DNA of 64,000 bases, taken from the NCBI GenBank assembly GCA_944326365.1, contig CALVDR010000006.1, positions 1-64,000 on the forward strand, written 5' to 3'. Numbering within the stretch: position 1 is the stretch's first letter; each line of letters starts with the position of its first letter. Under the pieces are notes generated by a model. That model had not been told where the DNA came from and searched no databases. It saw only the letters and a program-made list of their open reading frames with translations. The position numbers and the translations under genes were made by a program. The DNA comes from an uncultured Bacteroidales bacterium. Its GTDB lineage: Bacteria; Bacteroidota; Bacteroidia; Bacteroidales; UBA932. Shown here in pieces: positions 3,717 through 22,352 of the stretch.

Positions 3717-3748
3717 AATATTAATATTGCCATTATCGGTTATTATCC

Positions 3749-3756
3749 CAAAGTTA
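3749..3756 (-). promoter_or_regulatory. Putative -7 element for the terminal GH3 gene
   Basis: Minus-strand TAACTTTG matches TAnnTTTG, 32 nt upstream of the chosen GH3 start and inside the 63-nt gap after rloB. No clear -33 box is seen at the usual spacing, so this is tentative. Confidence 0.45.
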
Positions 3757-3779
3757 ACACATATACGCAAATAATGTGT

Positions 3780-4412
3780 TCAGATAAACTTGTTCAATTC
3801 TTCTACCAACAGATGTACGGTAGTAGAAGATTCTTCCATAGCCGGATTACCATGCGACATTTCAGCAAGAACGGCAGCGGCATTTTTAATGGCGTGCGGC
3901 TGCAAGTGAAGCAATCTATTATATAGGATTGCTCCGAATCCTTCTGTCTTGGAATATGGTATTCCTGCAAGCTTTGACAGCATGTCGGGATAGCTGTTTC
4001 TGTGCAATGTCCCTTTGTAGGGATTGAAGTGCAGCAAGAACCAATATTCAAACGCCTGATTACTGTAAGCCACCTTGAACCCGTTCTTTTCGGCCAGGGC
4101 AATGGCATCATTGAAATCTTTTGCAGGAAAATCATCCTTGTCAAACACTACCCAACATTGATCATAAGTCCGTTTTTTCTTTTGGTCAGCGTCACGGATG
4201 CTGATGGCCTTGCTTACAAGGCTGGTAGTGTTCATGGCCTGACCTACCGCCTTTACCGTGGCAGCGGTCATTCTGAAAGCCTTGAAATAATCCGGCTCGG
4301 TACAGACTCCTTCGCAAACTATGAGAAACGACTGCTTTACTTTCCTCGTGCCTTGGCGACGTGTCAATGAAGCAGAATGGTGATCTTTCCTATTTGTCTT
4401 TCCCATGGTCAT
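3780..4412 (-). CDS. RloB-family (AbiLii-like) TOPRIM-type protein
   Basis: The 210-residue protein carries the RloB signature IVCEGVCTEPDYF (Glu34) followed by VVFDKDDF (Asp91, Asp93). This is the Glu plus DxD pattern of TOPRIM-like metal-dependent nucleases. RloB proteins pair with an ATPase in the abortive-infection system AbiL and in restriction-linked RloAB islands. The ATG overlaps the stop of the upstream ATPase gene by 4 nt (ATGA), so the two are translationally coupled. The basic N-terminus (KTNRKDHHSASLTRRQGTRK) has no signal peptide, so the protein is cytoplasmic. Codon use is more AT-rich than in the flanking hydrolase genes, which points to horizontal acquisition. Nuclease activity is inferred from the motif only. 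Confidence 0.85.
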   Translation of the reverse strand: MTMGKTNRKDHHSASLTRRQGTRKVKQSFLIVCEGVCTEPDYFKAFRMTAATVKAVGQAMNTTSLVSKAISIRDADQKKKRTYDQCWVVFDKDDFPAKDFNDAIALAEKNGFKVAYSNQAFEYWFLLHFNPYKGTLHRNSYPDMLSKLAGIPYSKTEGFGAILYNRLLHLQPHAIKNAAAVLAEMSHGNPAMEESSTTVHLLVEELNKFI

Positions 4413-5623: not shown

Positions 5624-5631
5624 ATATTTAA

Positions 5632-5666
5632 CTTCTATATTTGCGGATTTTCTACAAATATAGAAG
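5632..5666 (-). promoter_or_regulatory. Perfect 12-bp inverted repeat holding divergent -7 boxes upstream of the RloAB genes
   Basis: CTTCTATATTTG at 5632-5643 and CAAATATAGAAG at 5655-5666 are exact reverse complements with an 11-bp spacer. Each arm contains TATATTTG, a match to the Bacteroidota -7 element, one on each strand. The minus-strand box (5655-5662) would place a start site shortly before the ATPase ATG at 5623. The palindrome could also be an operator for autoregulation. No regulator gene is adjacent. Confidence 0.7.
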
Positions 5667-5726
5667 TTTTCTTTCACATTAAATAAAAGATAGCCTGAAT
5701 TTCGATTATATAATGAAAAGAAATAC

Positions 5727-7931
5727 TTATCCGCATTTATCCCCCGACCACCTAATTATTATTGGCCGTAAACAGGTGTATCTTTCCGGATACCCCCCCC
5801 CCAAAAAAAAAGAATGGCTATAAAGCCATTCTTCAATCAAACCTGAAGTTTTCATCATCAGGACCGGCATCCAGTGGCCGGCGATGACCGAGCGCGCGCG
5901 GAACTGGATAGGCATGCAGTCGACAGTCCCGTACCAGTCCCCCAGCGGGAACCTCCTCGGACTCTCGTTCACATAGTCGTAAACCGGAACCACAAGCATG
6001 TCGAATGTCTCCCTGTCAGGAGCCATGGCGGCTATCCACATGATCCAGTCCGACTTCGTATAGTCCTCGCGGCAGTCGAGAGGCACTCCGTAGCGGTTCC
6101 GCTTCGCGAGATAATACGGAATCTCCTTCGCCATCACGTCTTCAGGGAATACACCTGTCCCCCAGAGCTTGTCCCATACCATATTGTATTTCAGGCTCCA
6201 CGTGTCAGGCCTGTCAAAGGCCAGACGGTAATGGTCGCCGTCATCCGCCTTCTCTATCCAGGCAGAAGCCATCTCACGCGCCTTGGCCATATACCTGGCT
6301 GCAGTATCTTCCATCCCCTGCATTCCGGCCAGTTCGCTGTAGGCCGCCACGCCCATGATGGCCTTGACGGAAAGATTCGCATTATGCGCCCAATGCCCCG
6401 CAAAATCATCGGTACAGAGCTGGTTCTCGGGATCCAGTCCATACTCCACGAGATAGTCAGTCCACTGGCTGAGCAGAGACCACCATCTGGCCGCATACTC
6501 CGGAGTACCTTCCGCCTTGGCTATGGCGGCAGACAGTATCACCATGTTTCCGGCCTCCTCCACAGGCATGTCCTCAGGATAGGTCTGTCCGTTCGCCTTC
6601 GGATATTTGCCGATATCATGCGCAGGGAAAGGCTTGGCCCATCTGCCGCTCTCGCTGTATTCGAAGATGGAAGTCATCATGCCTTTCAGCAGGTCGGTAT
6701 TGTACAGCAGGAACAGAGGGGCTGACGGGTATGTCAGGTCGACGGTATTCACGCTTCCGTTGCTTCCGTTCTCCTTCGAGAAGAAAAGAAGATTCCCCTT
6801 CCTGTCAGTGAAAAGCTTATGCGCGGCTATGGCAGGCCTGTAGGAAAATGCCAGCAGCTCGGCATATTTCCGTCCGCCGGCAGCCTCGGCATCACTCATT
6901 ATCTTCTCGTCGAAATCACGGCAGCGCTCCATGATCTGAAGATAATCACGCTGGAATCTTTCGAAGGCATCGAAAATGCTCACCCCACCTTCATGCTTCC
7001 AGTAAGCCATATACCGCTCGTACATATACTCCATGCAGTACACATCATCATATCCTGCCATGAAGAAGCCATGCTTCCCGGCCTTGTCCACCTGGCCCAG
7101 ATCGTGGCAGTAAGCCAGCACCGCCGTATACACCGTATCCCTGTCCACGATGACATCAGGCAGCATGTCAGGAAGATTCCCGGTGCCGGCAAAGGAACTT
7201 CTGACCTCGTCCGACTTTCCTATAACCGTCGCGGCAGACGCACCTGAACGCCCGGCCAGATACACATAGCCCCAGTCTATGCCTGTATAGTCCCCCGACC
7301 TGACAGTATACGGCTGCTCGAGAGTGCCTGAATACGCATAATCCAGACCGCCCCGGCTCATGCTGCGCGATTCGGTATCCTGCCCTGGTTCATGGACGGC
7401 AAGCACAGGAACAGTGTCCACATAGAACTGCACGTCATGCGAAGCCCTGTCGAGAGACCTGACCCTGTAGGAAATATAATTTACCGGTGTGGACATCAGA
7501 TCGAGGTCATCTATCAGCAGCGGCGCAGTGAAGACCACATCCAGCTCCACGGGACCGCACCTGAAAGTGTAATAGGTCTGGGTAGGGAGCACGTCCACAG
7601 ACAGCTGCTCGGCGGCATTTCCGAAAAATCCGTCCACCGACGCACCCATGAAACGGTAAACCTCACCGTCCACACGGACAGCCCCGACAAGAGGACGGAC
7701 AGTCTCGAACCAATGGCTTGTAGGACCGTCGTACAGCCTGTCACAAGGCGACCATACAGAAAAATAGGAATCCGATACCAGAAGAGGAAACGACTGCGCG
7801 CGCAGTTCTGTCTGTCTTACCGGCGTGAAAAGCCTGTCCTCTCCGGAAAGGGTGCCGGCAGTCTTTGCCGGCAATATTGCCGTGGCGGCAAAGGCTGCCA
7901 CGGCAGATATCATTATCTTTTTTATGTTCAT
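5727..7931 (-). CDS. DUF4965/DUF1793 glutaminase-A-like secreted protein; 3' end possibly frameshifted
   Basis: The N-terminus (MNIKKIMISAVAAFAATAILPAKT) is a signal peptide. The body matches the GtaA-like architecture found in many PULs (DUF4964/DUF5127, DUF4965, DUF1793): FPLLVSDSYFSVWSPCDRL, DGPTSHWFETVRPLVG, and late segments such as NLSVKAIMGVAAYSELAG and YNMVWDKLWGTGVFP. Despite the glutaminase name, these proteins are suspected carbohydrate-active enzymes and their substrate is unknown. The frame runs past the expected family end, through a terminator-like hairpin and a C10/A9 tract. In the -1 frame the protein would end in ENFRFD at a stop at 5833, directly before that hairpin, so a one-base deletion or sequencing error near 5860 is likely. 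It follows the PA14-GH3 gene by 83 nt. Confidence 0.82.
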   Translation of the reverse strand: MNIKKIMISAVAAFAATAILPAKTAGTLSGEDRLFTPVRQTELRAQSFPLLVSDSYFSVWSPCDRLYDGPTSHWFETVRPLVGAVRVDGEVYRFMGASVDGFFGNAAEQLSVDVLPTQTYYTFRCGPVELDVVFTAPLLIDDLDLMSTPVNYISYRVRSLDRASHDVQFYVDTVPVLAVHEPGQDTESRSMSRGGLDYAYSGTLEQPYTVRSGDYTGIDWGYVYLAGRSGASAATVIGKSDEVRSSFAGTGNLPDMLPDVIVDRDTVYTAVLAYCHDLGQVDKAGKHGFFMAGYDDVYCMEYMYERYMAYWKHEGGVSIFDAFERFQRDYLQIMERCRDFDEKIMSDAEAAGGRKYAELLAFSYRPAIAAHKLFTDRKGNLLFFSKENGSNGSVNTVDLTYPSAPLFLLYNTDLLKGMMTSIFEYSESGRWAKPFPAHDIGKYPKANGQTYPEDMPVEEAGNMVILSAAIAKAEGTPEYAARWWSLLSQWTDYLVEYGLDPENQLCTDDFAGHWAHNANLSVKAIMGVAAYSELAGMQGMEDTAARYMAKAREMASAWIEKADDGDHYRLAFDRPDTWSLKYNMVWDKLWGTGVFPEDVMAKEIPYYLAKRNRYGVPLDCREDYTKSDWIMWIAAMAPDRETFDMLVVPVYDYVNESPRRFPLGDWYGTVDCMPIQFRARSVIAGHWMPVLMMKTSGLIEEWLYSHSFFLGGGYPERYTCLRPIIIRWSGDKCG
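5802..5840 (-). terminator. Terminator-like hairpin inside the annotated end of the DUF4965 gene
   Basis: On the minus strand GAATGGCTTTATAGCCATTC is followed by nine T (5803-5811) and then ten G (5793-5802). This is a good intrinsic terminator. It sits inside the open frame, which is why the annotated 3' end of the gene is suspect. Confidence 0.65.
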
Positions 7932-8014: not shown

Positions 8015-10522
8015 TCAGTCAAGGGTTACGATACCTCTCAGAGTCAGGTCAGCGTCCGCCGATGAAGACCCTGCCAGAATTTCGAACTCCCCGGCTTCCA
8101 TACGGAACCTGCCTTCATCCATGTCGAAGAACTCGAAAGCCCCGGAATCGAGGATGATTTCCACGCGCTTGCTCTCACCTTTCCTGAGAAAGACTTTCTC
8201 AAAGCCTTTCAACTCTTTCTCAGGACGGGGTACGCTGCTCTTGATATCCCTGACATAGACCTGCGCGGTCTCGGCACCGTCCGTCTTTCCGGTATTCCTG
8301 ACATCGAACGACACCGACACACGTCCGTCGGACAACACGGCCAGCTCCAGCCCGCCATACTCGAAATCAGTGTAGCTCAGTCCGTAACCGAAAGGAAACA
8401 GCGGCTTCACCCCGCTCCTGTCATAGCCCCTGTAGCCGATGAACACACCTTCGGCATACTGCACACGGTGATGGACCACTGTACGGCGGTGATCATAATA
8501 GCTTCTGTAAGCAGGGTTGTCTGACCAGGACCTCTCTATCGATATCGGCAGCTTTCCGCTCGGATTCACACGGCCGGAAAGCACCTCGGCCACAGCAGTC
8601 CCTCCTTCCTGGCCGGGATACCACGCCATAAGCACGGCGTCTGCATCGTCTATCCAGCGGCTGAAATCCACCGCACCTCCGGCATTCACCACTACAGTCA
8701 CCTTCTTTCCGCTTGAGCAAAGCACCTTTATCAGTTCCTCATGCCCCGGAGGCAGGCGGAATGTCCTGTCGGAGCCTTCATCCTCGGTGTCCTTGTCGAA
8801 ACCGACACTCACCACGATATTATCCGCATCCAGCTTCGATAGCATCTTCCCGTCCACTCTCAGACAGGTGAAGTCCAGCGATGCCGGGCCTGTCTTCTCA
8901 TAATACTCTATCCTGATCTCATATGTCTGTCCCGCCTTCACTTCCATGATATGGCTTTTGCCGCTCAGTGCGTGGCCTTTCCAGTCAGCGAACACTTCCT
9001 GTCCGTCTATGACAAGACGGTAGCCGTCATCCGCCGCTATCCTGAATATGGTCCATCCGTCATGCTGCGGGCGGTAGGAAGCCTTGTAGATCGCGGAGAA
9101 ATTGTCCTTGTTGATACGCGGGTCAGGAGAACCTTTGGCCCACTGATTATGGATCGAAGGCTCTATACGGGTGATCTGCGGAGCTCCGGTCTCGAACTCA
9201 GACCAGAAATCGCGGGAGTTGTAATACTCTGCCAGGAAACCTTTCTTTCCGGACAATGCATCGGCATAGAAATTATCCGCCTCCGACACTGTCCAGAGCG
9301 AATCCGCCAGCACGGAAACATTCCCGCCGAAAATTTCCGTCATTCCCTTATGCAGGCTCACGGCATAAGCCGGCACCACATGGCTGCTGCCCCCTCCTGC
9401 AGGTGCGGCATCCATATTGTGTCCTGTGATCAGAGTACGGCCTTTCAGAGGGAGGGTACCCTTCGTGTTCTTCAGCATGACTATACCTTCGCGGGCCACC
9501 TGGAGAGCAGTCTGAGCGGACTTTTCCTCATCGGCTGCGGAACTGTCAGGCCCGGAAGGACGGTCGAGAATACCCAGGGCGATAAGGGACTGAAGGATAT
9601 GCTGCACCTTCAGGTCTATGGTCTTTTCAGTCACCGTACCCGTCGAAATGGCCTGGAGCAGCGCCTCGCGGCTCATATAGTTTCCGTAAGGCATCTCCAG
9701 ATCCATGCCTGCATTCGCCGCACTCACTGTAGAATAAGTGGAATTCCAGTCCGACATGAGGATACCCTTGAATCCCCATTCCTTTCTGAGGATATCGATA
9801 TTCAGCCACGGATGCTCCGAAGTATGTACGCCGTTCAGAAGATTGTAACTGTTCATCACGGCCCCTACGTGAGCCTCCTGCACGGCCTTGCGGAAAGCAG
9901 GGAAGTAAATCTCCTGCAGTGTGCGCTCGTCTGCATCGGTGCTGATATGGCTTCTGTCCCACTCCTGGTTGTTCCCTGCGAAATGCTTGACCACAGCCAT
10001 GACACCGCGGGACTGCACGCCGCGTATATAGCTCACAGCCATCTCACCGGCCAGATACGGGTCTTCACCGTAATACTCGAAATTCCTGCCGCACATCGGG
10101 GCACGGTAGATATTGACCCCCGGGCCCAGCATTATGGAGATTCCCTGCGCACGTGCATCGCGGCCTATGGATTCACCCATCTCGCGTACCAGAGCCCGGT
10201 TCCATGTGGATGCAGCCATCACGCCGGCTGGATATCTCGTGGCGGGGATTTCGCTCCGGACTCCGGCAGGGCCGTCCGACATCCTCACCTGCGGGATGCC
10301 GAGACGAGGTATCGCCCTGATATAAAACGCATTGTCACCGCCCACATAGTCAAGTTTCTCCTCCAGCGTCATCTGCGATACGATCCCGGCGGCACGCGCC
10401 TCTATCTCGGGGGTGATTTCCTGAGCGGACATTGCCGCGGCAGCGGCAAAAAATACAAGCGGCGCGGCAGTTCCCTTGAGCAGCGCCTGCAATATGTTTG
10501 TCTTCATCTTCTGAAATGTCAA
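8015..10522 (-). CDS. GH3 beta-glucosidase with inserted PA14 domain
   Basis: The 835-residue secreted enzyme has a signal peptide with AAAAAMSAQ, the GH3 barrel (PRLGIPQVRMSDGPAGVR, VKHFAGNNQEWDR) and nucleophile Asp258 in ILMSDWNST. The GH3-C domain is interrupted by a PA14 lectin-like insert (about residues 426-555, from FLAEYYNSRDFW to ASLDF) and is followed by an Fn3-like domain. PA14 inserts in GH3 enzymes cap the active site and set chain-length preference. The ATG at 10522 overlaps the stop of the upstream GH3 gene (ATGA, 4 nt), indicating coupling; MKTNIL at 10507 is an alternative start. It probably trims beta-gluco-oligosaccharides in the periplasm. Confidence 0.92.
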   Translation of the reverse strand: MTFQKMKTNILQALLKGTAAPLVFFAAAAAMSAQEITPEIEARAAGIVSQMTLEEKLDYVGGDNAFYIRAIPRLGIPQVRMSDGPAGVRSEIPATRYPAGVMAASTWNRALVREMGESIGRDARAQGISIMLGPGVNIYRAPMCGRNFEYYGEDPYLAGEMAVSYIRGVQSRGVMAVVKHFAGNNQEWDRSHISTDADERTLQEIYFPAFRKAVQEAHVGAVMNSYNLLNGVHTSEHPWLNIDILRKEWGFKGILMSDWNSTYSTVSAANAGMDLEMPYGNYMSREALLQAISTGTVTEKTIDLKVQHILQSLIALGILDRPSGPDSSAADEEKSAQTALQVAREGIVMLKNTKGTLPLKGRTLITGHNMDAAPAGGGSSHVVPAYAVSLHKGMTEIFGGNVSVLADSLWTVSEADNFYADALSGKKGFLAEYYNSRDFWSEFETGAPQITRIEPSIHNQWAKGSPDPRINKDNFSAIYKASYRPQHDGWTIFRIAADDGYRLVIDGQEVFADWKGHALSGKSHIMEVKAGQTYEIRIEYYEKTGPASLDFTCLRVDGKMLSKLDADNIVVSVGFDKDTEDEGSDRTFRLPPGHEELIKVLCSSGKKVTVVVNAGGAVDFSRWIDDADAVLMAWYPGQEGGTAVAEVLSGRVNPSGKLPISIERSWSDNPAYRSYYDHRRTVVHHRVQYAEGVFIGYRGYDRSGVKPLFPFGYGLSYTDFEYGGLELAVLSDGRVSVSFDVRNTGKTDGAETAQVYVRDIKSSVPRPEKELKGFEKVFLRKGESKRVEIILDSGAFEFFDMDEGRFRMEAGEFEILAGSSSADADLTLRGIVTLD

Positions 10523-12789
10523 TTTTTGGATTTTTTCTTTCCTGTACGTTCCTCCAAGGTAAATGCGACGCTCTCGAAATGCTCGCTGTCGGTACCGACC
10601 ATGAAAGTGAAATCGCCCGGTTCCACGACATAATCAAGAGACTCGGTATAGAATCCGAGCTGCGCATCCGTGATATCGAAAACCACTTCCAGGGACTCCC
10701 CCGGAGCGAGGGCTATCTTCCTGAACCCCTTCAGTTCCTTCACCGGACGTGTAACCGAAGCCACCTCGTCGCGCACATACAGCTGGACGACCTCCTCTCC
10801 CGCACGGTCTCCGGTATTGGAGACTTCCACACGCACCCTGGCATGGACATCGCCGCCGTCACCCGGAAGGACTTCCGGAGAACTGTAGCTGAACTGCGTA
10901 TAGCTCAGGCCATAACCGAAAGGATAGGCCGGTTCGTTCGGGATATCCATATACCGCGCATGCCACCATCCGTTCGATGCAGGACGGCCCGTACTCTTGT
11001 ACTGATAATATATAGGTATCTGCCCGTGATGCAGAGGGAAAGTCATCGGAAGCTTGCCGGACGGATTGTAGTCACCCCAGAGTACATTGCAGATGGCATT
11101 CCCGGCCTCGCTGCCCAGCCACCACGTACAGAGGACCGCCCCCGCAGCCTCCCGTGCCTCATTGAAAATCACCGGACGGCCGCACATCAGCAGGACCACC
11201 GTAGGGGTGCCCGTCCGGGCAATGGCTTCGACCAGTTCCTGCTGCTCCGCAGCAATGGCTATGTCTCCGCGCGAACGCATCTCCCCGCTGTACTCACCCC
11301 TCTCGCCTATGGCCACAACGGCCACATCAGCCCTGCGGACATCTTCAATGGTCTTTTCCAGGCCCGTAATCTCATCGGTATCGAGATTGTAGCCGTCACT
11401 GTAAAGCACTTCCACACCCCGTTTCCGCATCGCATCATAGAGGGTCACAGCACGGCTCTCGTCAGCGCAGGACCACTTCGCACACATGTCGTGGGCCGAC
11501 TTCGAAAGTCCTCCCACCAGAGCCACGGTCTTCACATCATCGGACAGAGGCAGTATGTCTCCGGCATTTTTCAGAAGCACCATGGAGCGTTCGGACACAT
11601 ACAATGCATCGGCATGGGACTGCGCAGAGCTGACTATCGCCTTTTCGCGCGCTTCGCTGCAGTAGCGGAACGGATCCTCGAAAAGCCCCAGTCTGTATTT
11701 CTGCTCCAGGATACGCCTCACGGCATCGTCCACCAGTTTTTCGGATACCAGACCTTCCCTGACCAGATCAGCCAGATGACCGGAATAGCAAGGAGACGAC
11801 ATCTCCATGTCCAGCCCGGCTTCTATCCCCTTCAGAGCAGCCTCGCGGGTATCGGCGGCACAGCGGTGGTTTATCACCTCTCCGAGAGAATAGTAGTCTG
11901 AAACCACGAAGCCTTCGAAACCCCAGTCATCTTTCAGGATATCACGCAGAAGCTGGCGGTTCACGGTACTCGGGACACTGCAGAAATCATTGAACGCACT
12001 CATGACAGTAGCAGCTCCAGCCTCTATCCCGGCCTTGTACGGAAGCATGTAGAAATTCGCGAACTGCCCCATGGACATGTCCACGCTGTTGTATTCCTTG
12101 CCGGCTATCGGAGCTCCGTATGCCGCGAAATGCTTTATGCATGAAAGTATGGTCAGGGTGTCGGCCAGATCATCTCCCTGAAAACCGCGGACACGGGCAC
12201 GGGCCACTGCCGCACCGTAATACGGGTCTTCACCCGCACCCTCCATCACTCGGCCCCATCTGGCATCCCATCCCACATCCACCATCGGAGCGAATGTCCA
12301 GTGTATGCCGGAAGCCGCTGATTCCCTCGCCGCACATCTCGCCGCCCTTTCTATGGCCTCAAGGTCGAAGCTTGCAGCCTCGCCGAGAGGGACAGGAAAG
12401 CCTGTACGATATCCGTGTATCACATCCTTTCCGAAAAGCAACGGAATCTGCAGACGGGACTGCATGGCCAGTTCCTGATACTTCCTCGTCTCGGCCACTC
12501 CCTCCACATTCAGCATGGAGCCTACATAACCGTTTGCGATGGCCTTCCTGTAGTCTCCGGTCTTCACTTCAGGTCCGGTGGTAAAATTCGCAGGTATCTG
12601 TACGAGCTGCCCCACCTTCTCTTCGAGAGTCATCTTCTTCATCAGGGAAGAGATGAAACGGTCCATCTGCCTGTCCTCATCCTGAGCGGACAATGCCCAG
12701 GCAGAAATCATAAAGGCTGAAGCCGCCGCCAGCGGCCTCAGCCACGCAAATACTAACCTGCAGCCTACCATTCGCATTTCTGTGTCCAT
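10519..12789 (-). CDS. bglX: BglX-like GH3 beta-glucosidase
   Basis: The 756-residue protein has an N-terminal signal segment (LAAASAFMISAWALSAQ), then MTLEEKVGQLVQIPANF, the GH3 barrel with KDVIHGYRTGFPVPLGEAASFD, KHFAAYG and nucleophile Asp298 in FVVSDYYSLGEV. GH3-C and Fn3-like domains follow, ending in KKKSKN. BglX-type enzymes are periplasmic exo-beta-glucosidases with broad linkage tolerance. The start overlaps the phosphoesterase gene by 25 nt at 12789. The internal ATGs at 12777 and 12771 would reduce the overlap and are equally good candidates. It is translationally linked to the next GH3 gene. Confidence 0.9.
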   Translation of the reverse strand: MDTEMRMVGCRLVFAWLRPLAAASAFMISAWALSAQDEDRQMDRFISSLMKKMTLEEKVGQLVQIPANFTTGPEVKTGDYRKAIANGYVGSMLNVEGVAETRKYQELAMQSRLQIPLLFGKDVIHGYRTGFPVPLGEAASFDLEAIERAARCAARESAASGIHWTFAPMVDVGWDARWGRVMEGAGEDPYYGAAVARARVRGFQGDDLADTLTILSCIKHFAAYGAPIAGKEYNSVDMSMGQFANFYMLPYKAGIEAGAATVMSAFNDFCSVPSTVNRQLLRDILKDDWGFEGFVVSDYYSLGEVINHRCAADTREAALKGIEAGLDMEMSSPCYSGHLADLVREGLVSEKLVDDAVRRILEQKYRLGLFEDPFRYCSEAREKAIVSSAQSHADALYVSERSMVLLKNAGDILPLSDDVKTVALVGGLSKSAHDMCAKWSCADESRAVTLYDAMRKRGVEVLYSDGYNLDTDEITGLEKTIEDVRRADVAVVAIGERGEYSGEMRSRGDIAIAAEQQELVEAIARTGTPTVVLLMCGRPVIFNEAREAAGAVLCTWWLGSEAGNAICNVLWGDYNPSGKLPMTFPLHHGQIPIYYQYKSTGRPASNGWWHARYMDIPNEPAYPFGYGLSYTQFSYSSPEVLPGDGGDVHARVRVEVSNTGDRAGEEVVQLYVRDEVASVTRPVKELKGFRKIALAPGESLEVVFDITDAQLGFYTESLDYVVEPGDFTFMVGTDSEHFESVAFTLEERTGKKKSKN

Positions 12790-14453
12790 TCGTGACCGAA
12801 ACGGTCTGTTATACGGACCTCACCGGAAGTCACTCCGGCCGAAGGCTTGATACGGAACAGATGGCGGGTATCATTCGGTCCAGGCTCGCCGAGTCTCTGT
12901 TTCTTCTGCTCTTCGTTTCCACCTGGAGTTACAAGCCATTCATTCCATGCATTGCGGTATGCAGGATCTCCCTCGGCATGATATTCCGTCATAGAGCCTT
13001 TACGGGTTCCGTTCTCATACCACTCCGGCGTACCCCATATGTTGTCATGGAGGAATACGTTCACATAGACATAGCCGTTCCCGGTTTCATCAGGAGTATA
13101 GATCTGCATCTGGTCGTTGCCGTTCTTCTCAGCAGGCTCTGCCCTCTTGTACTCCCATGTGATGTTCTGACCGTCCACGTCAGCCACGATGAAACCTCTC
13201 GGCACACCGTCCGTAGTGATTTCGTTCTCCATGTAAAGAGTACCCGTAGCCCTGGCTATCTGATGCGACTCCATGGACTGGAATCCGTTTTCGCCGGCAG
13301 AATAACTGTAATTATACCCCGTATGGATATGCCCTGACCAGTTCTGTACCCTATATCCGGATACCAGAGCCTTGAACTTGTCATAGTTCCTGAGCCAGCT
13401 CGCATCGTTCTCGCCTCCGGAATTCAGCATTCTGGCTGCCGGTCCATGGGTCACTATGCACAGTGGAGTGGTCTTGTCCACATACAGCAGGTCATTTTCG
13501 ATGAACTCCAGAGTCTCGTCATCGAAGCCTTCGCAGTAGTGCCAGCGTGCATCGCCATCCCACTCTCCCCCGTCAGGATGCGGAGTATCGATCTCGTTCC
13601 AGATGATGGTGTCGAGGAAGAGATAGTGCACACTTCCGATATTGGCCGAATAGTTGTTCGGCCCGAAATCACGGATATATCCTGATACGGCTACATAGTC
13701 GTTTGTATGTTTCGCAGGGTCATCCACCAGAGTGGAAGGTATCAGGCCTGAGCCTGTATTCAGAGGACCGATATGGTCATGATTCCCCGGGACATTGAAC
13801 GTCGGTATCTGTGTCATGGCTATCTGGTCCTTGAAATAAGCATGTTCCTGCGGTCTCTCGTATGTCAGATCCCCCACATTCACCATATACACCGGCACAT
13901 CGGATTCCTTCTTGTATTCGGCGAGGGCGTTTATCACTTTCGTATAGCTCTCGTACGAACCGGCCATATCCTTGCGGATCTGAGGATCACCCACATACAG
14001 CACCTTGTAGTGCAGGGATGAGACCGTCATCGGTTCCAGACCGAAATTGAACTGCTGCACCTCGTTCTTCTTGTCCAGGTCTATCATCTTGTACCCGCCG
14101 AAACAGAAATCCTCATCCACAGGAATCTCATATCCGTTCGGGACACAGACGAAGACGCACCTCTGGGTGGAGAAATCGGTATTCAGCCAGTACATTCCAT
14201 TGGCATCCGTCCTGGTGCAGAGACGTCCGTCGCTCACCACCACATCGGGCATGGCTGCCCGGGTCTTTGCATTGATCACTATTCCTTTTACAGTCGCGCC
14301 TTCCTTGTCCGGGACATTCAGGTCAGTCACCGCCGACCCTCCTCCGTTCCCGCCGTTTCCGCCGGCAGAAGGCTTGTCGGTTTCCCCGCAAGCCGCCAGC
14401 GACATCAGTACTGATGCGGCTGCCGCCGCAATGCTCAAAATTTTCCTTGTCAT
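12765..14453 (-). CDS. Calcineurin-like metallophosphoesterase lipoprotein
   Basis: The 562-residue lipoprotein (lipobox SLAAC, Cys22) has a glycine-rich linker, then a CarboxypepD_reg-like N-terminal domain (VKGIVINAKTRAAMPDVVVSDG) as in the Metallophos_N family. The phosphoesterase core shows GDPQ (D156), GDLTYE (D195), GNHDH (N224-D226), THGP and GHIHTGYN, a full set of dinuclear metal ligands. A separate C-terminal domain follows. Such proteins occur in PULs and may remove phosphate or phosphodiester decorations from glycans, but the substrate is unknown. It lies between the DUF1735 gene (80-nt gap) and bglX (overlap), so it is part of the operon. Confidence 0.9.
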   Translation of the reverse strand: MTRKILSIAAAAASVLMSLAACGETDKPSAGGNGGNGGGSAVTDLNVPDKEGATVKGIVINAKTRAAMPDVVVSDGRLCTRTDANGMYWLNTDFSTQRCVFVCVPNGYEIPVDEDFCFGGYKMIDLDKKNEVQQFNFGLEPMTVSSLHYKVLYVGDPQIRKDMAGSYESYTKVINALAEYKKESDVPVYMVNVGDLTYERPQEHAYFKDQIAMTQIPTFNVPGNHDHIGPLNTGSGLIPSTLVDDPAKHTNDYVAVSGYIRDFGPNNYSANIGSVHYLFLDTIIWNEIDTPHPDGGEWDGDARWHYCEGFDDETLEFIENDLLYVDKTTPLCIVTHGPAARMLNSGGENDASWLRNYDKFKALVSGYRVQNWSGHIHTGYNYSYSAGENGFQSMESHQIARATGTLYMENEITTDGVPRGFIVADVDGQNITWEYKRAEPAEKNGNDQMQIYTPDETGNGYVYVNVFLHDNIWGTPEWYENGTRKGSMTEYHAEGDPAYRNAWNEWLVTPGGNEEQKKQRLGEPGPNDTRHLFRIKPSAGVTSGEVRITDRFGHEWTQKCEW

Positions 14454-14533: not shown

Positions 14534-15043
14534 CTATTCAAACTTTATGTATACAGACTTGTAGTCGAACGATACATTCAGAGTGCTCTCAGCCTGAAGA
14601 GACAGAGGAAGTATGTAATCGTCCGCCGACAGGCCGGCAGCCTTGAATCCCGCGATATCGAGTTTCACAGGCACATAGACCTGGTTGTTTTCCCCTGTAT
14701 CCAGAGTGACAGTACTCTGGAGCAGAGACCAGTAGTCGGCAGGCATCTGCTCGTAATCGGTCCCGGCCTCGATGTTGTATACATCCAGGGCATATTCATC
14801 CACGACGATATCAGCCTGGATGCTTCCGCCGTTGTTTCCCGCATTGTAGATGCAGAGCTGGTAGCAGCCGTTTTCGTCCAGATCTTCCTGTGAAACCGTG
14901 ATCAGTGGATTGCGTTCGGCCAGAGGGAAATATACCTTGGAATCCACGTCGTTCTCATACAGTATGTTCTGCGATTTCGAGCAGGACGATACCAGAAGGA
15001 CCGCCGCTGCCGCGCCGAGAAATATTTTAAGTATGTCTTTCAT
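14534..15043 (-). CDS. DUF1735-type surface lipoprotein of a Sus-like locus
   Basis: The start MKDILKIFLGAAAAVLLVSSCSKS at 15043 gives a 169-residue lipoprotein with Cys at the VSSC lipobox. The longer frame to 15217 runs into susD and lacks a signal sequence. The body (VYFPLAERNPLITVSQEDLDENG, YVPVKLDIAGFKAAGL, DDYILPLSL) matches the immunoglobulin-like DUF1735 domain found in SusE-position, surface glycan-binding proteins. It lies directly downstream of susD, the usual place for such a protein. It is short, with only one domain and no obvious C-terminal carbohydrate-binding module. Confidence 0.85.
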   Translation of the reverse strand: MKDILKIFLGAAAAVLLVSSCSKSQNILYENDVDSKVYFPLAERNPLITVSQEDLDENGCYQLCIYNAGNNGGSIQADIVVDEYALDVYNIEAGTDYEQMPADYWSLLQSTVTLDTGENNQVYVPVKLDIAGFKAAGLSADDYILPLSLQAESTLNVSFDYKSVYIKFE

Positions 15044-15094
15044 TTTATGATATGTACTTGTTTTTCTATCTGATTTGCATTTATGATTTCCCGA

Positions 15095-15140
15095 GGGTGA
15101 CTCAAAAGGCGGGACTTCAGGCGTAACGCGGAAATCACCC
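15095..15140. repeat. Hairpin repeat in the susD-DUF1735 gap
   Basis: GGGTGA (15095-15100) and TCACCC (15135-15140) bracket a segment with CTCAAAAGGCGGG and CGCGGAAATCACCC. This resembles the GCGGAAATCGCCC units upstream of the two tRNA genes and looks like a diverged member of that family. It partly extends the 121-nt intercistronic space and could modulate the stoichiometry of the downstream genes. Confidence 0.4.
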
Positions 15141-15164
15141 CCTTTCGAGCCGTCCTCATATCTG

Positions 15165-17084
15165 CTAATTGTAGCCCGGATTCTGGACGAGAAGGTTGTT
15201 GTTCTCGATCTCGGCACGCGGGATAGGAAGCCAGTTCGTCTTAGGATAATCGAATACCCGAGGGAACTTGCTCTGCTCCTTCAATGTGGCGAGGGTATTG
15301 AAATCCTCTACGGTTGCACCATCGATATTCAGACCCTCAGGAGTGTGTCCGAGCCATTCCTGTGCGAGGTTCCAGCGGCGCAGATTGTGATACAGACGGC
15401 ACTCGCAGGCCAGCTCGGCCATGTTCTCGTAGCGGAGCGCCTTCCTCATGTTTTCTCCGGACGGTTTTCCTCCGGCCTCGGTCCAGGATTCTTCGAAACC
15501 TGGAAGACCTGCCCTCTCACGCACCTTGTCCAGATACCCTATGCCCGTAGAGCTCAGATCTCCGTCATACTCGAAGTCAGCCTCGGCATAGTCAAGATAA
15601 AGCTCGGCCAGACGCAGGTAAGGGAACGGATACTTGGCCAGCCCCATAGTATTAGTAGACTCGTTGTAAGTACTGTTCACCGATATGAATTTCTGCAGGA
15701 CATAGCCTGTGCAGCTTCCGTTGTACTCTGTCTGCTCGTCTCCGGTATAGCCGTGCTTCTGGTGATAACGGAGCTCCAGAGTATAGGTATCACTGTTGCT
15801 GGTGTACTCACCGCCGTCATATCCTATGGTGGCATAGAAACGTGGATCACGGTTCTGGCAGAAGTCGGAGATGCCGTTACCGTCACCGTCAGCTACAAGT
15901 TCTGCAAGTGACTTGTCCTTAGTATCAGGATCAGCCCAGAGAGGCAGACCCTTGTCCGTCAGGAAAGTCTCCGCGATCTGCAGCGTAGGCACGAGATACT
16001 GTCTGAATCCGTTTCCGGTATAGTTGATCGCTGCTCCATCGGCATTATACTCGGAACCGTCCCAGACGCGGACACCTGCTATCCTCTGAATATTCACCCC
16101 CTCTCCAGGCTGTGCACCTATGGAGAAAAGATATTCCTTCTGGGCTGCCCAGTCTGTCTCGACGAAGCAGTTGTAATAGTTCTTCGTCCCGGCATCGGCA
16201 TCAGCCGCTGTACCGCCATACAATGCGTAGCCGTTGCCTTCTGCCAGATTGATAGCCTCCTGGATGGCATCCAGAGCCTTTTTCCATTTTTCCTTGTCAT
16301 ACTCGCGAGGCATCAGCGGAGTCCCGTCTTTCGACACGAATGACGAATATGCCTCGTTCCCGTTTGTCATCGGGCTGGCGGCATACATCAGCACCCTGGC
16401 CTTGTAAGCCTTGGCAGCCACTGAACTGGCACGGCCCAGTTCGTTGTTCGCCACGGTAGGATTCAGCATGGAAGCGGCGGTATCGAATGTCGTGGTGACG
16501 AAGTCCACGCAGTCATCCCACGAAGACCTCGGCATCATCATCTCATCCGCCTCCGCATCCACAGGGATCTCATGATCGATGATGACTACAGGACCGTAAT
16601 ACTGCATCAGGGTCCAGTGCAGATAGGCTATCAGGAAATAAGCCTCCCCCTTGGTCCTGGTCTTCTCTGACTCCGGCATGTCAGGGACACTGTCGACATG
16701 CGAGATGAACATGTACGCATATTTGATACCCTTGTACAGGTCCCAGTATACAGGCTGGCGTCCCAGGGCGTTCCCTCCGTCCCAGAAACTGAAATAAGTA
16801 CCGTCAGGGGTCTCGTTTCCGCAGAGGACGGAGCGGTATCCGAACCATTCGAGATTTCCTGCAGGTCCCGTGATGAGGTCACCTCCGGCACACATGTCGG
16901 GAGCCCACCTGAAAGAAGATATGTTCGGAATATAGTTGTAGACACGGTACAGGAACTGCTGAGCCTGCTGGCTCGACTTGAACGAATCCTCCAGTATGGC
17001 TGTGTTTTCCGGCACGACATCCAGGAAACTGCATGAAGCCAGAGAGAGGACAGATGCTGCAAATATTATAAACTTGTTTTTCAT
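15165..17084 (-). CDS. susD: SusD/RagB-family glycan-binding lipoprotein
   Basis: The 639-residue lipoprotein (MKNKFIIFAASVLSLASCSFLDVVPE) has Cys at LASC followed by the SusD N-terminal signature. TPR-like helices and the RagB domain follow, with C-terminal LRRWNLAQEWLG and WLPIPRAEIENNNLLVQNPGY, the standard SusD ending. It forms the lid over the SusC barrel and captures oligosaccharides at the cell surface. It sits 27 nt downstream of susC in the same operon. Confidence 0.96.
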   Translation of the reverse strand: MKNKFIIFAASVLSLASCSFLDVVPENTAILEDSFKSSQQAQQFLYRVYNYIPNISSFRWAPDMCAGGDLITGPAGNLEWFGYRSVLCGNETPDGTYFSFWDGGNALGRQPVYWDLYKGIKYAYMFISHVDSVPDMPESEKTRTKGEAYFLIAYLHWTLMQYYGPVVIIDHEIPVDAEADEMMMPRSSWDDCVDFVTTTFDTAASMLNPTVANNELGRASSVAAKAYKARVLMYAASPMTNGNEAYSSFVSKDGTPLMPREYDKEKWKKALDAIQEAINLAEGNGYALYGGTAADADAGTKNYYNCFVETDWAAQKEYLFSIGAQPGEGVNIQRIAGVRVWDGSEYNADGAAINYTGNGFRQYLVPTLQIAETFLTDKGLPLWADPDTKDKSLAELVADGDGNGISDFCQNRDPRFYATIGYDGGEYTSNSDTYTLELRYHQKHGYTGDEQTEYNGSCTGYVLQKFISVNSTYNESTNTMGLAKYPFPYLRLAELYLDYAEADFEYDGDLSSTGIGYLDKVRERAGLPGFEESWTEAGGKPSGENMRKALRYENMAELACECRLYHNLRRWNLAQEWLGHTPEGLNIDGATVEDFNTLATLKEQSKFPRVFDYPKTNWLPIPRAEIENNNLLVQNPGYN

Positions 17085-17111: not shown

Positions 17112-20100
17112 TTAGAAATTGAACTGCACTCCGAGCTGCACTGTCCTCTGAAGAGGATAGGAAAGACCGTTTCCGCTGCCTTTCTCCGCATCCCAGTATT
17201 TGAAAGGAGACAGGATAAAAAGGTTCGTGGCAGAACAGTATATCCTGGCGAAATCCTTTATGGTATAACCCACTTCGAGGTTTTTCAGCCTCAGGAAGCT
17301 TCCGTCCTTCACCCAGAATGACGAGGAGGCAGTATTGTTCCTGTTCCACTGGTAGTCGAGTCTCGGATATGCCGCATCCGGATTCGGATCGGACTCTGAC
17401 CAGTGGTCATCTGCTATCCACTGGAGCATACCGTATGAAGAGTTGCTTCCGTCTGTGAAAGGATGCATGTTCTTCATGTTTATGGACACCCTGGCACGTC
17501 CCTGGAAGAAGAACGAGAAGTCGAGGTTTTTCCAGCGTGCGGACGCTCCGAAACCGTACATGATTTCAGGGACTTCCGGATAGCCGATATAGGTACAGTC
17601 ATTCTCGTTGATCACACCGTCACCGTTCAGGTCCTTGTACTTGATGTCTCCCGGACGGATGTCGGCGGTCTCGCCTGCTATGGTCTGTCTCGGTGAGTTC
17701 GCTATGTCGGCCTCGTCCTTGAACAGGCCCTCAGCCACATAACCATAAATGGTATTCAGAGGCTTTCCTATCTGTGAAGTATAGGCATAAGGCTTGAACG
17801 GAGATTCGTCATTCTCCACCACCTCGTTGTGCGCGAAGGTGAATGTACCCCTCGCAGTCACTGTCCAGTCACGGTTTATAATCTTCCTGTAGTCCATGGA
17901 CAGGTCCACACCCATGTTCAGTACTGCACCGAGGTTTGCCCAAGGCTCCATTCCGGAGATTCCGACAGTGGACGGAATGGTATTTCTCTGCATGAAGATA
18001 CCGTCACGGTACTCCGAGAAGAAATCCGCTATAATGGTGAGTTCGTCGAAGAAGCCCAGCTCCACTCCGATATCGTGCTTCCGGCTCACCTCCCAGGATG
18101 CCTTCTCGTTTCCGATGGTGGACAGATAGTTCATCTTCTGGCTATCATAGCCTGTACCTATGGCGAAGTTAGGAAGCTCGGCCCCGTCGCCCAAAAGTGA
18201 AGAACTGCTGTTCATCACCATCTCGGAGATATACGGGAACCTCTGGTTCAGATAGTCGTTTCCGGAAAGACCGAACGAGTAGCGCACTTTCAGGAAAGAG
18301 AACCAGTCCTTGATGCCGCTGAAGAATTTCTCGTTCGAGACTATCCATCCTGCCGCCACTGAAGGGAAGAAACCGAATCTCTTGCCGCCCATGAAGTTCT
18401 CCGAACCGTTGTAACCGAAGTTACCCTCTATCAGATACCTGTCGTCATAGCCGTAGGAAACACGTCCGGCCAGGCCCTGTTCCCTTTTCGGAAGGGAATT
18501 GTAGTAGTTGCTTGCCATATTGTCGACTGTCTCTTTCTGATGGTAGAGGACCACGGCATTCACGTTGTGCTTGCCGAATGTACGGTTGTACTCGATGTTT
18601 CCCTGGAGATTCACCTGCCTGTAGCCGTTCTGGTCCGTGGACAGTGACAGATAATCGGTACCGTCGGTATTCACCGAAGTGAGCGTACGCTCATATGTTT
18701 CAAGCACAGGATCGTATGTGGAGGTACTCGTGTACAGGTGAGGCACCCTCTGGTAAGTCCTTCCCGAATAGGTCTTGTTGTAGAAGGAAACCTGTGCCCA
18801 TACTTTCAGTCCTTTCGTGATGAACTTCAGATCCTGATCCACCCTCAGGGAAGTGGTCAGGTAGTTCGTATACTGCTGCTTGTAGCCTTTGGCCAGTTCG
18901 GCATACGGGTTCGTCATGTTTCCTACTCCGGACCATGAAGCACTGGTTCCGAATATGGTATAGTCGGCATCCATCCACTCTGACGGATATGTCGGGGAGA
19001 AAGACACCGGATTCGTCCTCATACACCAGTAGAACAGATCTCCGGAAGAAATCACAGGCTTGTAGAAATACAGCATCTGGGCGTTCATCTTGATGCTGGC
19101 TACCGTAGTGCTCGTGATTTTCGCGGTCACATTGCTCTGGAAAGTATATTTCTGGGCATTGATATTCGTGTTGAACGGGGCGTCGGCGACATTCTTGATC
19201 ATACCGCTTTCGTTGTTCACCGAAGCGTTCAGGAAGTAGTCCACCCTGTTTCCGCCGCCGCGGACATTGATATTCAGGTTCTCGGCCACGCCCAAGTCAT
19301 TGAACATCATGTCATACCAGTCCACGTTCGGATAGGCGTACGGATCCAGATTCTGTTCCGTGCCGGTGATCTGTGTCGTAGTGTATCTGCCGACAGCCAC
19401 CCCACGTCCCAGCTGAGCCTCGTTGAAGTTTTTCATATATGTCACACCGTCAGCCACTTCCGGTATTGCCGTAGGCATGGATACCGTAGTGTTGAAATTC
19501 ACGTTTACGGACATCCTGTCAGCCACACGGCCGCTCTTCGTGGTGATGATCATCACACCGTTCGCACCTCTGGAACCGTACAGCGCCGTCGCTGCGGCAT
19601 CCTTAAGCACGGAGAAAGACTCGATGCTCTCGGCAGGGATGCCGTTCAGTATCTCGGCATTGATCTCCACGCCGTCAAGAATGTAGAGCGGCTCGGTGCT
19701 GGCTCCGAAGGTCGAAATACCGCGGATCCAGAAGCTCGCACCGTCGGCTCCAGGTTCGCCTGAAGACTGGGTGGCGATCACACCGGCTATGTTTCCGGCG
19801 AAAGAAGTGGAAAGGTTGCTCGACGGGGTGACCAGCTTGCCCGGATCGATGGACTCGACCGAAGATATCATGGTCTCCTTGCGCTGGGTCGTACCGAAAG
19901 CGACCACCACAGCATCCTCGATGGACTGGGTGGACTCGTCGAGAGAGATGACCTTGAATACTATGTTGTTTCCTCCGACCTTGAGTTCCTTGGTCAGATA
20001 ACCTATGGAAGATATGGTCACGATTTTCACGTCGGACGGTATCACGAGGGTATAGTTTCCGTCGATATCAGCTACAGTTCCGTACTGGGTTCCTTCTACA

Positions 20101-20279
20101 TAGACCGCAGCTCCGGGAATAGGCTGGCTGTCCTCGGATGATATCACGGTTCCTGAAAGAGTGATGTCACCGCCCTGGGCAAAGCCATTCAGAAGCGCAA
20201 CAAAGAATAATGAACAGACCAGCAACATCCTCCTCGCCGTTGCCGGCAGGGGACGGGCCTCTGTCTTCGAATTTTGCAT
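17112..20279 (-). CDS. susC: SusC/RagA-family TonB-linked outer membrane transporter
   Basis: The 1055-residue protein has a signal peptide ending near LNGFAQG, then a CarboxypepD_reg-like domain (ITLSGTVISSEDSQPIPGAAVYVEG, residues about 39-120). The plug carries SusC signatures (LYILDGVEI, LKDAAATALYGSRGANGVMIITTKSG), and a 22-strand-type barrel ends in VQLGVQFNF with a terminal aromatic residue. It imports glycan fragments captured by SusD using TonB energy. No anti-sigma/FecR, hybrid two-component or SusR regulator is encoded nearby. Instead, its promoter contains a C12 homopolymer. Confidence 0.97.
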   Translation of the reverse strand: MQNSKTEARPLPATARRMLLVCSLFFVALLNGFAQGGDITLSGTVISSEDSQPIPGAAVYVEGTQYGTVADIDGNYTLVIPSDVKIVTISSIGYLTKELKVGGNNIVFKVISLDESTQSIEDAVVVAFGTTQRKETMISSVESIDPGKLVTPSSNLSTSFAGNIAGVIATQSSGEPGADGASFWIRGISTFGASTEPLYILDGVEINAEILNGIPAESIESFSVLKDAAATALYGSRGANGVMIITTKSGRVADRMSVNVNFNTTVSMPTAIPEVADGVTYMKNFNEAQLGRGVAVGRYTTTQITGTEQNLDPYAYPNVDWYDMMFNDLGVAENLNINVRGGGNRVDYFLNASVNNESGMIKNVADAPFNTNINAQKYTFQSNVTAKITSTTVASIKMNAQMLYFYKPVISSGDLFYWCMRTNPVSFSPTYPSEWMDADYTIFGTSASWSGVGNMTNPYAELAKGYKQQYTNYLTTSLRVDQDLKFITKGLKVWAQVSFYNKTYSGRTYQRVPHLYTSTSTYDPVLETYERTLTSVNTDGTDYLSLSTDQNGYRQVNLQGNIEYNRTFGKHNVNAVVLYHQKETVDNMASNYYNSLPKREQGLAGRVSYGYDDRYLIEGNFGYNGSENFMGGKRFGFFPSVAAGWIVSNEKFFSGIKDWFSFLKVRYSFGLSGNDYLNQRFPYISEMVMNSSSSLLGDGAELPNFAIGTGYDSQKMNYLSTIGNEKASWEVSRKHDIGVELGFFDELTIIADFFSEYRDGIFMQRNTIPSTVGISGMEPWANLGAVLNMGVDLSMDYRKIINRDWTVTARGTFTFAHNEVVENDESPFKPYAYTSQIGKPLNTIYGYVAEGLFKDEADIANSPRQTIAGETADIRPGDIKYKDLNGDGVINENDCTYIGYPEVPEIMYGFGASARWKNLDFSFFFQGRARVSINMKNMHPFTDGSNSSYGMLQWIADDHWSESDPNPDAAYPRLDYQWNRNNTASSSFWVKDGSFLRLKNLEVGYTIKDFARIYCSATNLFILSPFKYWDAEKGSGNGLSYPLQRTVQLGVQFNF

Positions 20280-20385
20280 AGAATGTGTCAGTTACTAGTT
20301 AATACATCAAAATAATACGGTAATCGCTTTTTGTGGTCAATGGCGACATCTGACATCGCAGGTTATGATTTGTTACAAAACAGGA

Positions 20386-20419
20386 CAAATATAGCGCCCC
20401 CCCCCCCCGAAAAAACAAA
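20386..20419 (-). promoter_or_regulatory. susC operon promoter with a C12 tract in the spacer
   Basis: The minus-strand -7 element TATATTTG lies at 20386-20393 and a TTTG -33 element at 20416-20419, 22 nt apart. The spacer includes an unbroken run of 12 C (20397-20408 on the plus strand). Reported Bacteroidota spacers are about 19-21 nt, so loss of one to three bases would bring the promoter to optimum. Slipped-strand phase variation is therefore plausible. Confidence 0.7.
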
Positions 20420-20447: not shown

Positions 20448-20478
20448 TTTGGATTCATATTTCCAATGTCTATATTTG
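20448..20478 (+). promoter_or_regulatory. Promoter of the divergent lipoprotein operon
   Basis: TTTG at 20448-20451 and TATATTTG at 20471-20478, spaced by 19 nt, fit the Bacteroidota consensus. Transcription would begin near 20485, inside the longer reading frame starting at 20466. That supports the start codon at 20556. Confidence 0.75.
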
Positions 20479-20555: not shown

Positions 20556-22352
20556 ATGAAGATCAAATTTTATCCGATGGCTGCGGCAGTCCTGACTGTC
20601 ATGGGTGTTTCATGCACAGACATCATACCGCAGGCCTATGACCCCGGTCTTTCCCTGAATACGGCGGCAGTGGATTTCCGCTATGAGGGAGGGAGCGAGG
20701 TATTGAAAATCACTTCGAACACCCCATGGACAATCGAAATGGAGGAATGCGACTGGCTTTCCGTGAGTCTCACATCAGGGGAAAGCACGGGAAAGGTCAT
20801 TCTGACAGCCGAACCGAACATGTCCGAGGAAAACACGAGGGAGGCGACAATCACCGTTACCTCCGAAGACGTCACCAGAGAAATAGTCATATCCCAGGAC
20901 AAATATGTGCGCTATGTCTCCATGACGATCAATACGGGAACTGAAGAAGCGCCCGTATGGACGGAAATGTCTACATTCGATGCCGCATCCATCACCGAGG
21001 ATCCTCTGCAGAAGATACAGATCAGAGTGGAATCGAACGCGGCATGGAAACTCACTCCTCCAGCCAACAATGACGGCATCTCTTTCAGCAAGGAATCGGG
21101 CGGCGGAGAAGACGTTTTTCCTGTCTCAGAGATCATCACCATGACTCTGGACAACAAGACTGTCAATATCACGGACGGTTCCGCTTTCTATATTTCCGAG
21201 ATGAAGCTCGCACTCGCTGACGGCACCTCAGAGTCCACACTCACCATCAGACAGAAGAACCCGTACTCGAACTGCTATATAATCAATTCTCCGGGAGAGT
21301 ACACCATACCTGCATACAAGCCTGACGGCACTCCTGTCACCGCTACAGACGCGAGATGGCTGTTCGAGACCGAGAAGGGGCTCATCTCAGGCACCGAGCC
21401 TAAGCTTGAGGAGGGAATCATCACCTTCACGGTCGCTGAAAGCCAGAACGCTGACGAGAAACAGAGAGGAGGCTACGGCATCATCGCACTGATGAACGGA
21501 ACTGACGTGGCATGGAGCTACGCCATCTGGTACACGAAAGAACTGAGAGACATTCAGATCGGAAGCTACACGGTCATGGACAGAAACCTGATGGCCTGGA
21601 CCGACAATCTCCCGACAGCGGACTTCGGCAACAAAACCGTACCCGGTGCATACGGCTGCCTCTACCAGTGGGGCAGCAAGAATCCGCTTCCATGCCCGTC
21701 CCAGACTGCGATAGACAGGCAAAATCAAGACAAGATGATAGAACATCACGATGAGATGTTTACTGAAAAGTATTTTATGAAGGGTAATTTCAATACCGGA
21801 TTCAAGAATCCTGACGGAACGGAAGCGACATACTATGATGACTATGGCAACAACAATACCGAGCCGATGAGCGACGACACACAGACCAAATATCCTTGGC
21901 TGTTTTGGAATAGCCAATATTCCAATACCGAGGCAAACCGCTGGTCCGACACTCAGAAGACTGTCAACGACCCGTGCCCGGCAGGATACAAGGTGCCGTC
22001 CATCTCCCAAATAAGCGAAATGGCTGGCATACTAAGCAATAACGGTTATAGCCAACCATTTACAGGTGACAGCAACAACTGGTGCAAGGTATACACGATG
22101 AACGGAGTGACTTTCAGTTTCATGCACCCGGGCTACATCAATAATCAACATGGCACACCGTTTCGGGCAGCTAAGTCTACTGTCGGTGTCGCTGCCGCAT
22201 ATTATTCAAGTACCGGATTCCAGGCCGAATGGGACGGTGGGTCACCAGATAACCTTAACACTGTTTGTAGCAAGGCCATATTCGACTGGAATACAGCCCA
22301 AGATAAAGTTAACACACGTTCTGCACTGGCAGTACGTTGCGTGAAAATGTAA
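20556..22352 (+). CDS. BACON-domain lipoprotein with C-terminal FISUMP domain
   Basis: The 598-residue lipoprotein starts MKIKFYPMAAAVLTVMGVSC with Cys at the lipobox. The start at 20556 is chosen because the promoter lies at 20448-20478. A BACON domain follows (VDFRYEGGSEVLKITSNTPWTIE to VISQDKY), then a second BACON-like segment. The C-terminal half matches the Fibrobacter succinogenes major paralogous domain: VMDRNLMAWTDN, YQWGSKNPLPCPSQTA, NDPCPAGYKVP, GVTFSFMHPG, and RSALAVRCVKM at the end. It is probably surface-exposed and binds glycan or protein ligands. The segment at about 21780-21990 is nearly identical to 24295-24505 in the neighbour. Confidence 0.85.
   Translation: MKIKFYPMAAAVLTVMGVSCTDIIPQAYDPGLSLNTAAVDFRYEGGSEVLKITSNTPWTIEMEECDWLSVSLTSGESTGKVILTAEPNMSEENTREATITVTSEDVTREIVISQDKYVRYVSMTINTGTEEAPVWTEMSTFDAASITEDPLQKIQIRVESNAAWKLTPPANNDGISFSKESGGGEDVFPVSEIITMTLDNKTVNITDGSAFYISEMKLALADGTSESTLTIRQKNPYSNCYIINSPGEYTIPAYKPDGTPVTATDARWLFETEKGLISGTEPKLEEGIITFTVAESQNADEKQRGGYGIIALMNGTDVAWSYAIWYTKELRDIQIGSYTVMDRNLMAWTDNLPTADFGNKTVPGAYGCLYQWGSKNPLPCPSQTAIDRQNQDKMIEHHDEMFTEKYFMKGNFNTGFKNPDGTEATYYDDYGNNNTEPMSDDTQTKYPWLFWNSQYSNTEANRWSDTQKTVNDPCPAGYKVPSISQISEMAGILSNNGYSQPFTGDSNNWCKVYTMNGVTFSFMHPGYINNQHGTPFRAAKSTVGVAAAYYSSTGFQAEWDGGSPDNLNTVCSKAIFDWNTAQDKVNTRSALAVRCVKM

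Follow-up and report, generated by a model that had tools for sequence, protein, structure and literature searches.

A poly-G tract in the promoter spacer of a Bacteroidales polysaccharide utilization locus: a candidate contingency locus within a genome-wide tract set

The textbook example of phase variation through DNA inversion comes from gut Bacteroidales. The locus considered here lies in a window of 64,000 nucleotides, the whole stretch of DNA that was analysed, and it raises the question of whether a polysaccharide utilization locus (PUL) of an uncultured, gut-type member of the order could be switched by other means. A preliminary description of the same DNA had pointed to a run of 12 cytosines between the −33 and −7 elements of a susC promoter and had proposed that slippage in it may make the PUL phase-variable. 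We have followed this proposal from the promoter itself to its orthologues, to comparable promoters of the genus and to the poly-G tracts of the whole genome. The assembly is a draft of 57 contigs, and the compared genomes, one per species, are also drafts and probably metagenome-assembled, so that their consensus sequences hide minority tract lengths and may contain homopolymer miscalls.

The susC promoter and the genes behind it

The tract is real, and the 22-nt spacer is exactly as first described. As susC is encoded on the minus strand, its promoter has the tract as G12 in the sense direction (Table 1) and runs TTTG, TTTTTTC, G12 (GGGGGGGGGGGG), CGC and TATATTTG, a long pure homopolymer thus sitting between both core elements, as is expected of a promoter-spacer contingency locus. 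The promoter fits the type used by the Bacteroidales primary sigma factor (sigma-ABfr), with TTTG near −33 and TAnnTTTG at −7, a pair that represents the canonical Bacteroides promoter (PMC7366714). This pattern occurs five times in the window, against 0.44 expected.

How the spacer compares with ordinary ones was assessed in a 464-kb sample of the genome, in which TTTG is found upstream of TAnnTTTG 12 times at 19 nt (background 1.5), four times at 20 nt and three times at 22 nt, that is, with a sharp peak at 19 nt, a weaker signal at 20 nt and barely any at 22 nt. The spacer had rightly been called slightly long, as its 22 nt in the assembly exceed the genome's preferred distance by 3 nt. That the tract exists is secure, because it recurs in other assemblies; its precise length is less certain, as a one-base miscall is possible.

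Behind the promoter, adjacent SusC and SusD genes are followed by three GH3 genes, and a GH97 gene is located on the divergent side, an arrangement by which the cluster is read as a GH3-rich PUL and a candidate single transcript. The three GH3 enzymes suggest a substrate of the beta-glucoside type. Within the run of PUL genes, between the GtaA-like and GH3 genes, sits a pair of AbiL-like genes. Among the large open reading frames between 0.9 and 31.6 kb, neither a PUL regulator, whose absence nearby had already been remarked on, nor an invertase was found.

Table 1. Features of the susC locus and their positions in the window
Feature	Position	Strand	Remark
GH3 enzyme	936..3770	-	distal end of the same-strand gene run
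RloB-like and AAA_21 proteins	3780-5677	-	match AbiLii/AbiLi (AbiL abortive-infection system)
GtaA-like protein (glutaminase A hairpin domain)	5727..7931	-	G tract near 3' end
G10, second tract of the window	5793..5802	-	last codons of the GtaA-like gene
GH3 enzyme with PA14 domain	8015..10522	-	
GH3 enzyme	10519..12789	-	
Calcineurin-like phosphoesterase (MetallophosN/C)	12765..14453	-	
BT_3987-like lipoprotein	14534..15217	-	
susD-like lipoprotein (SusD_RagB)	15165..17084	-	
susC-like TonB-dependent transporter (CarbopepD_reg_2, Plug)	17112..20279	-	
Perfect palindrome TTTGTTACAAA (inner copy)	20369..20379	.	just downstream of the −7 box (about +3 to +13)
−7 element TATATTTG, susC promoter	20386..20393	-	motif match; aligns with orthologues, TATTTTTG in G314
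22-nt spacer TTTTTTC-G12-CGC	20394..20415	-	G9 would make 19 nt
G12 homopolymer tract (C12 on +), proposed slippage element	20397..20408	-	inside the promoter spacer; G11/G10/G9/G9 in orthologues
−33 element TTTG, susC promoter	20416..20419	-	motif match
Second copy of TTTGTTACAAA	20432..20442	.	between the divergent promoters; not conserved in G181 or G103
Divergent promoter TTTG-N19-TATATTTG	20448..20478	+	tract-free; for the BACON-domain gene
Divergent BACON-domain lipoprotein	20556..22352	+	mechanical ORF from 20466; signal peptide from 20556

The tract in susC orthologues and at other promoters of the genus

Orthologues of this susC were found in five related genomes, namely G181 (96% protein identity), G103 (86–89%), G314 (77%), G377 (76%) and G029 (71–73%), and none closer was found beyond these among 130 relatives or 400 congeners. 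A pure tract of G9–G12 occupies the spacer in five of the six susC promoters, our own genome counted (G12 here, G11 in G181, G10 in G103, G9 in both G314 and G029), and the intergenic sequence around it diverges. The tract is therefore kept at the locus among relatives and differs in length, as a contingency locus would be. The five tract-bearing spacers measure 22 nt here, 22 nt in G181 (from TTG only), 20 nt in G103, in which the recognisable −33 TTTG has been lost, 21 nt in G314 and 20 nt in G029. Between our genome and G181, the difference of G12 and G11 is an edge substitution, so that total spacer length is equal and there is no net length change. In the sixth orthologue, G377, the tract is interrupted and reads GGGGTGGG within a spacer of 22 nt, which suggests that a 22-nt spacer may be tolerated and need not mean OFF. 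The fetched loci of more distant SusC relatives (63% identity and below) contain no G/C run of at least 7 nt, and the tract thus belongs to this orthologous group.

Directly downstream of the −7 box, the orthologues conserve a TTTTGTAACAAATTATAACCTGCG-like stretch whose core is the palindrome TTTGTTACAAA; this inner palindrome is conserved in G181 and G029, is degenerate in G103, G314 and G377, and is possibly an operator or a 5'-leader element. Together with the second copy it flanks the tract, the two centres being 63 bp, or about 6.0 helical turns, apart. The genome holds four TTTGTNACAAA sites in all, two of them elsewhere than at the susC promoter, which is fewer than in the reversed control, and the palindrome was accordingly rejected as a genome-wide regulon site.

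Comparable promoters are present in other members of the genus. In a scan of 400 genomes for G8 placed 0–8 nt upstream of TAnnTTTG, runs of G8 or more were detected at 71 distinct sites in 47 genomes, against eight matches to the mirrored pattern that served as control (about ninefold). For tracts located 26–34 nt upstream, beyond the −33 element, there were about 40 sites versus 29 mirrored matches, the excess of spacer tracts over these being about 1.8-fold, and the −7 box was TATATTTG at 42 of the 71 spacer-tract sites versus 5 of the approximately 40 upstream ones. Poly-G is thus common near promoters generally, and is in further, clear excess next to strong −7 boxes. Most of the 71 sites have a −33 motif (often AATTTGGAAAAGT) at 18–23 nt and genes with signal peptides downstream, and the spacers of tract promoters spread over 18–23 nt, as opposed to the peak at 19 nt of ordinary spacers (P 0.03). 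One congener, G391, carries eight separate promoters that combine G8 or more with TATATTTG (L076–L082), several of them with near-identical cores of AATTTGGAAAAGTC, G8 or G9 and TATATTTG. As a general feature of the Bacteroidales the arrangement was rejected, since only 11 of 294 other genomes of the order have one G9-TAnnTTTG site, which equals the reversed control; outside the genus, a single strong instance of a promoter tract was seen, G12-TATTATATTTG in a genome of a different family of the order (G581:C1:135958-135980).

Poly-G tracts across the genome and their instability

In the 464-kb sample, G/C runs number 185 at 5 nt, seven at 6 nt and none at 7 nt, followed by one, three, three and one at 8, 9, 10 and 12 nt, respectively. 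Their lengths are therefore bimodal, with almost none at 6–8 nt and a separate class at 9–12 nt; A/T runs decay smoothly in the same sample and have no second peak. A run of G12 is far beyond chance and well above the genomic expectation in length. The whole genome contains 32 tracts of at least nine G/C, and G181 and G103 have about 30 such tracts each. Overlapping G10 matches, of which there are 21 here, amount to zero in about half of 150 congeners and to few in nearly all others, and two higher counts stem largely from poly-G at contig ends. Such ends (G018:C57, G118:C10 and C207) are probably assembly or sequencing junk, which swells homopolymer counts. Loss of mismatch repair was considered as the cause of tract growth and rejected, as a MutS_I domain is present in an open frame of 898 codons; congeners with few tracts likewise have this domain.

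Most of the 32 tracts are inside genes, and some are located in promoters or leaders. The coding tracts occur in SusC-type and other TonB-dependent transporters with SusC Plug/CarbopepD domains (L174, L175, L176, L181, L199), in Reg_prop/HisKA hybrid two-component sensors (L179, L185, L190, L191, L194, L201), in fimbrillin-like and other lipoproteins, and in genes for a histidine kinase, a DUF6377 protein, a DPP IV-like protein and a ceramidase-like/GH20b protein. G9 keeps the coding frame open, while G10 and G11 mostly break it (with one exception, L193). Gain or loss of one base in the window's second tract would replace no more than the C-terminal tail of the GtaA-like protein (723/734/726 aa). 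Outside coding regions, L203 is located after a terminator. The tracts in 5' leaders include a G9 between a TAnnTTTG-like box and a tRNA-like gene (L202, C25:24612-24621) and a G11 that follows a TAACTTTG box by about 30 nt and precedes an ATG by about 50 nt (L192, also L013, C10:20356-20367); the latter may act on RNA structure or translation.

Our genome and G181 have 12 tract positions in common, at a flank identity of 71–94%, and seven of these 12 pairs show a net indel at the tract, compared to 8.1% of same-size control windows (P about 1e-5). The common tracts retain pure GGG codons at places where a synonymous change would interrupt the run. Among the eight clear orthologous coding pairs, five differ between the species, with an open frame on one side and a shifted frame on the other (L174/L222, L177/L228, L180/L223, L191/L214 and L199/L221), two are open in both and one is shifted in both; the open/shifted pairs are what reversible frame switches would look like in a species-level snapshot. 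Promoter tracts are also variable, as seen in the very close genomes G187 and G266, which differ over 1.33 kb of alignment by a few substitutions and just two indels; each indel falls within the G tract of a different promoter spacer, one going from 8 to 9 and the other from 10 to 9.

A slippage reading, its rivals and known systems

The proposal of slippage phase variation is borne out in part. For the tract class it is well supported by the orthologue lengths of 12/11/10/9/9, the bimodal runs, the indels between G187 and G266 and the frame differences, and tract length changes faster than the flanks; at the susC promoter itself, however, the spacer is as long as in the nearest relative, G181. 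From the sequence comparisons we consider it probable that the spacer tract in the promoter of this GH3-rich PUL constitutes a poly-G contingency locus. What we infer for living cells is that replication slippage would add or remove G's in the spacer, so that the −33 and −7 elements would stand at another distance and face the helix differently, and susC and the genes behind it would be transcribed at another rate. Given the 19-nt optimum of the genome, G12 (22 nt) would be the weak or OFF state and G9–G10 (19–20 nt) the stronger ones. The tract would be part of the genome-wide set of about 32 members, which are mostly on PUL and surface genes and are of both the promoter/leader and the coding type, and the presumed benefit would be bet-hedging over glycans, phage or immune pressure. 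Held with somewhat less confidence, yet still likely, is the wider claim that a lineage within one Bacteroidales genus has a poly-G phasome of about 30 tracts that randomises PUL function at three levels in each cell, namely susC-operon promoter spacing, SusC frame and hybrid-sensor frame, so that clone mates would differ in glycan uptake without any invertase.

Among the other explanations, poly-G could be a mutational by-product of the lineage, caused by expansion bias or weak repair, in which case the tracts would be mutable with no selected switching role and the one in the promoter would persist by accident. The lineage-specific tract load fits such an origin, as do the tracts at sites of little switching value, such as L203 behind its terminator, the last codons of the GtaA-like gene and L202 before the tRNA-like gene. 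It is nevertheless unlikely in view of the 12 positions common with G181 at the flank identity given above, the pure GGG codons kept there, the strong bias to SusC, sensor and lipoprotein genes, the fact that tracts beside the −7 box outnumber those of the mirrored control, and the MutS_I domain in its open frame. We give very little credence to a static promoter, in which PUL expression would be constitutively low, the G tract doing no more than fix a weak spacing or DNA shape, with no change on the biologically relevant time scale: the five tract-bearing orthologues do not have one spacer length, and comparable promoter tracts have changed between the near-identical G187 and G266, although our own spacer and that of G181 are equal and G377 retains 22 nt with an interrupted tract.

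It is also very improbable that the tract tunes expression by changing how far apart, or in what helical phase, the two TTTGTTACAAA palindromes stand for the binding of a regulator, and not through the −33/−7 spacing. The perfect pair at about 6.0 turns around the tract, with just two other TTTGTNACAAA sites in the genome, would suit this model, but the outer copy is absent from G181 and degenerate in G103, both of which keep the spacer tract, and such palindromes are absent at most other tract promoters of the genus. Hardly any weight falls on a sequencing or assembly artefact that gave a wrong homopolymer length or invented the tract; draft quality and the poly-G junk at contig ends in G018 and G118 would speak for it, but the tract is internal, has unique flanks, is found again at the corresponding site of four further assemblies, and A/T runs show no matching excess.

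If the tract is a poly-G contingency locus, its closest counterparts include two promoters of Neisseria. The fetA (frpB) gene is described as phase-variable through a poly-C run of C10–C14 in its promoter spacer (Carson et al., 2000, in PMC5320596); it too encodes a TonB-dependent outer-membrane receptor with the tract between promoter elements, the spacing of which sets expression. In contrast to the proteobacterial fetA, which has sigma-70 −35/−10 elements and serves iron uptake, the locus described here has Bacteroidales −33/−7 elements and a glycan-uptake operon, and is a candidate switch known from sequence. For porA, a poly-G spacer is listed whose length affects both the spacing and the amount of transcript (van der Ende et al., 1995, in PMC5320596); the G run in the spacer is common to both, but porA encodes a porin, has another promoter class and was shown experimentally. 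In Bordetella, the C-stretch of fim2, fim3 and fimX is likewise a long promoter homopolymer whose length is linked to transcription (PMC1891110), although it is located within the fim-box promoter and controls fimbrial subunits. Coding poly-G contingency loci of Campylobacter and Neisseria, such as hmbR and hpuA, are turned on and off by frameshifts (PMC3786947, PMC8355987) and resemble the present set in that G tracts lie in surface genes genome-wide; the tracts here differ in that the genes affected belong to a gut Bacteroidales lineage and encode SusC, PUL lipoproteins and hybrid two-component sensors.

Within the Bacteroidales, DNA inversion is the described route of phase variation (PMC11868660, PMC12118408), and invertible promoters, including SusC/SusD inversion, are attributed to earlier work (Nakayama-Imaohji, 2009; Jiang, 2019; cited in PMC11868660 and PMC7366714). 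Such systems belong to the same order and also yield stochastic on/off expression of surface and SusC/SusD genes, which is here proposed; they depend, however, on an invertase that recombines inverted repeats site-specifically, while a homopolymer would need none. In the open-access literature, subscription papers and preprints being outside the scope, we found no report of a slippage-controlled PUL or of a Bacteroidales poly-G phasome, and given this scope the absence of precedent is weak evidence of novelty. The closest statement found was a speculative comment about a C run in an acetyltransferase of B. fragilis (PMC3090145).

If the slippage reading is true, simple repeats would bet-hedge nutrient choice, extending beyond capsule or phage receptors, and many apparent frameshifts of SusC and sensor genes in draft genomes would be reversible OFF states and not pseudogenes.
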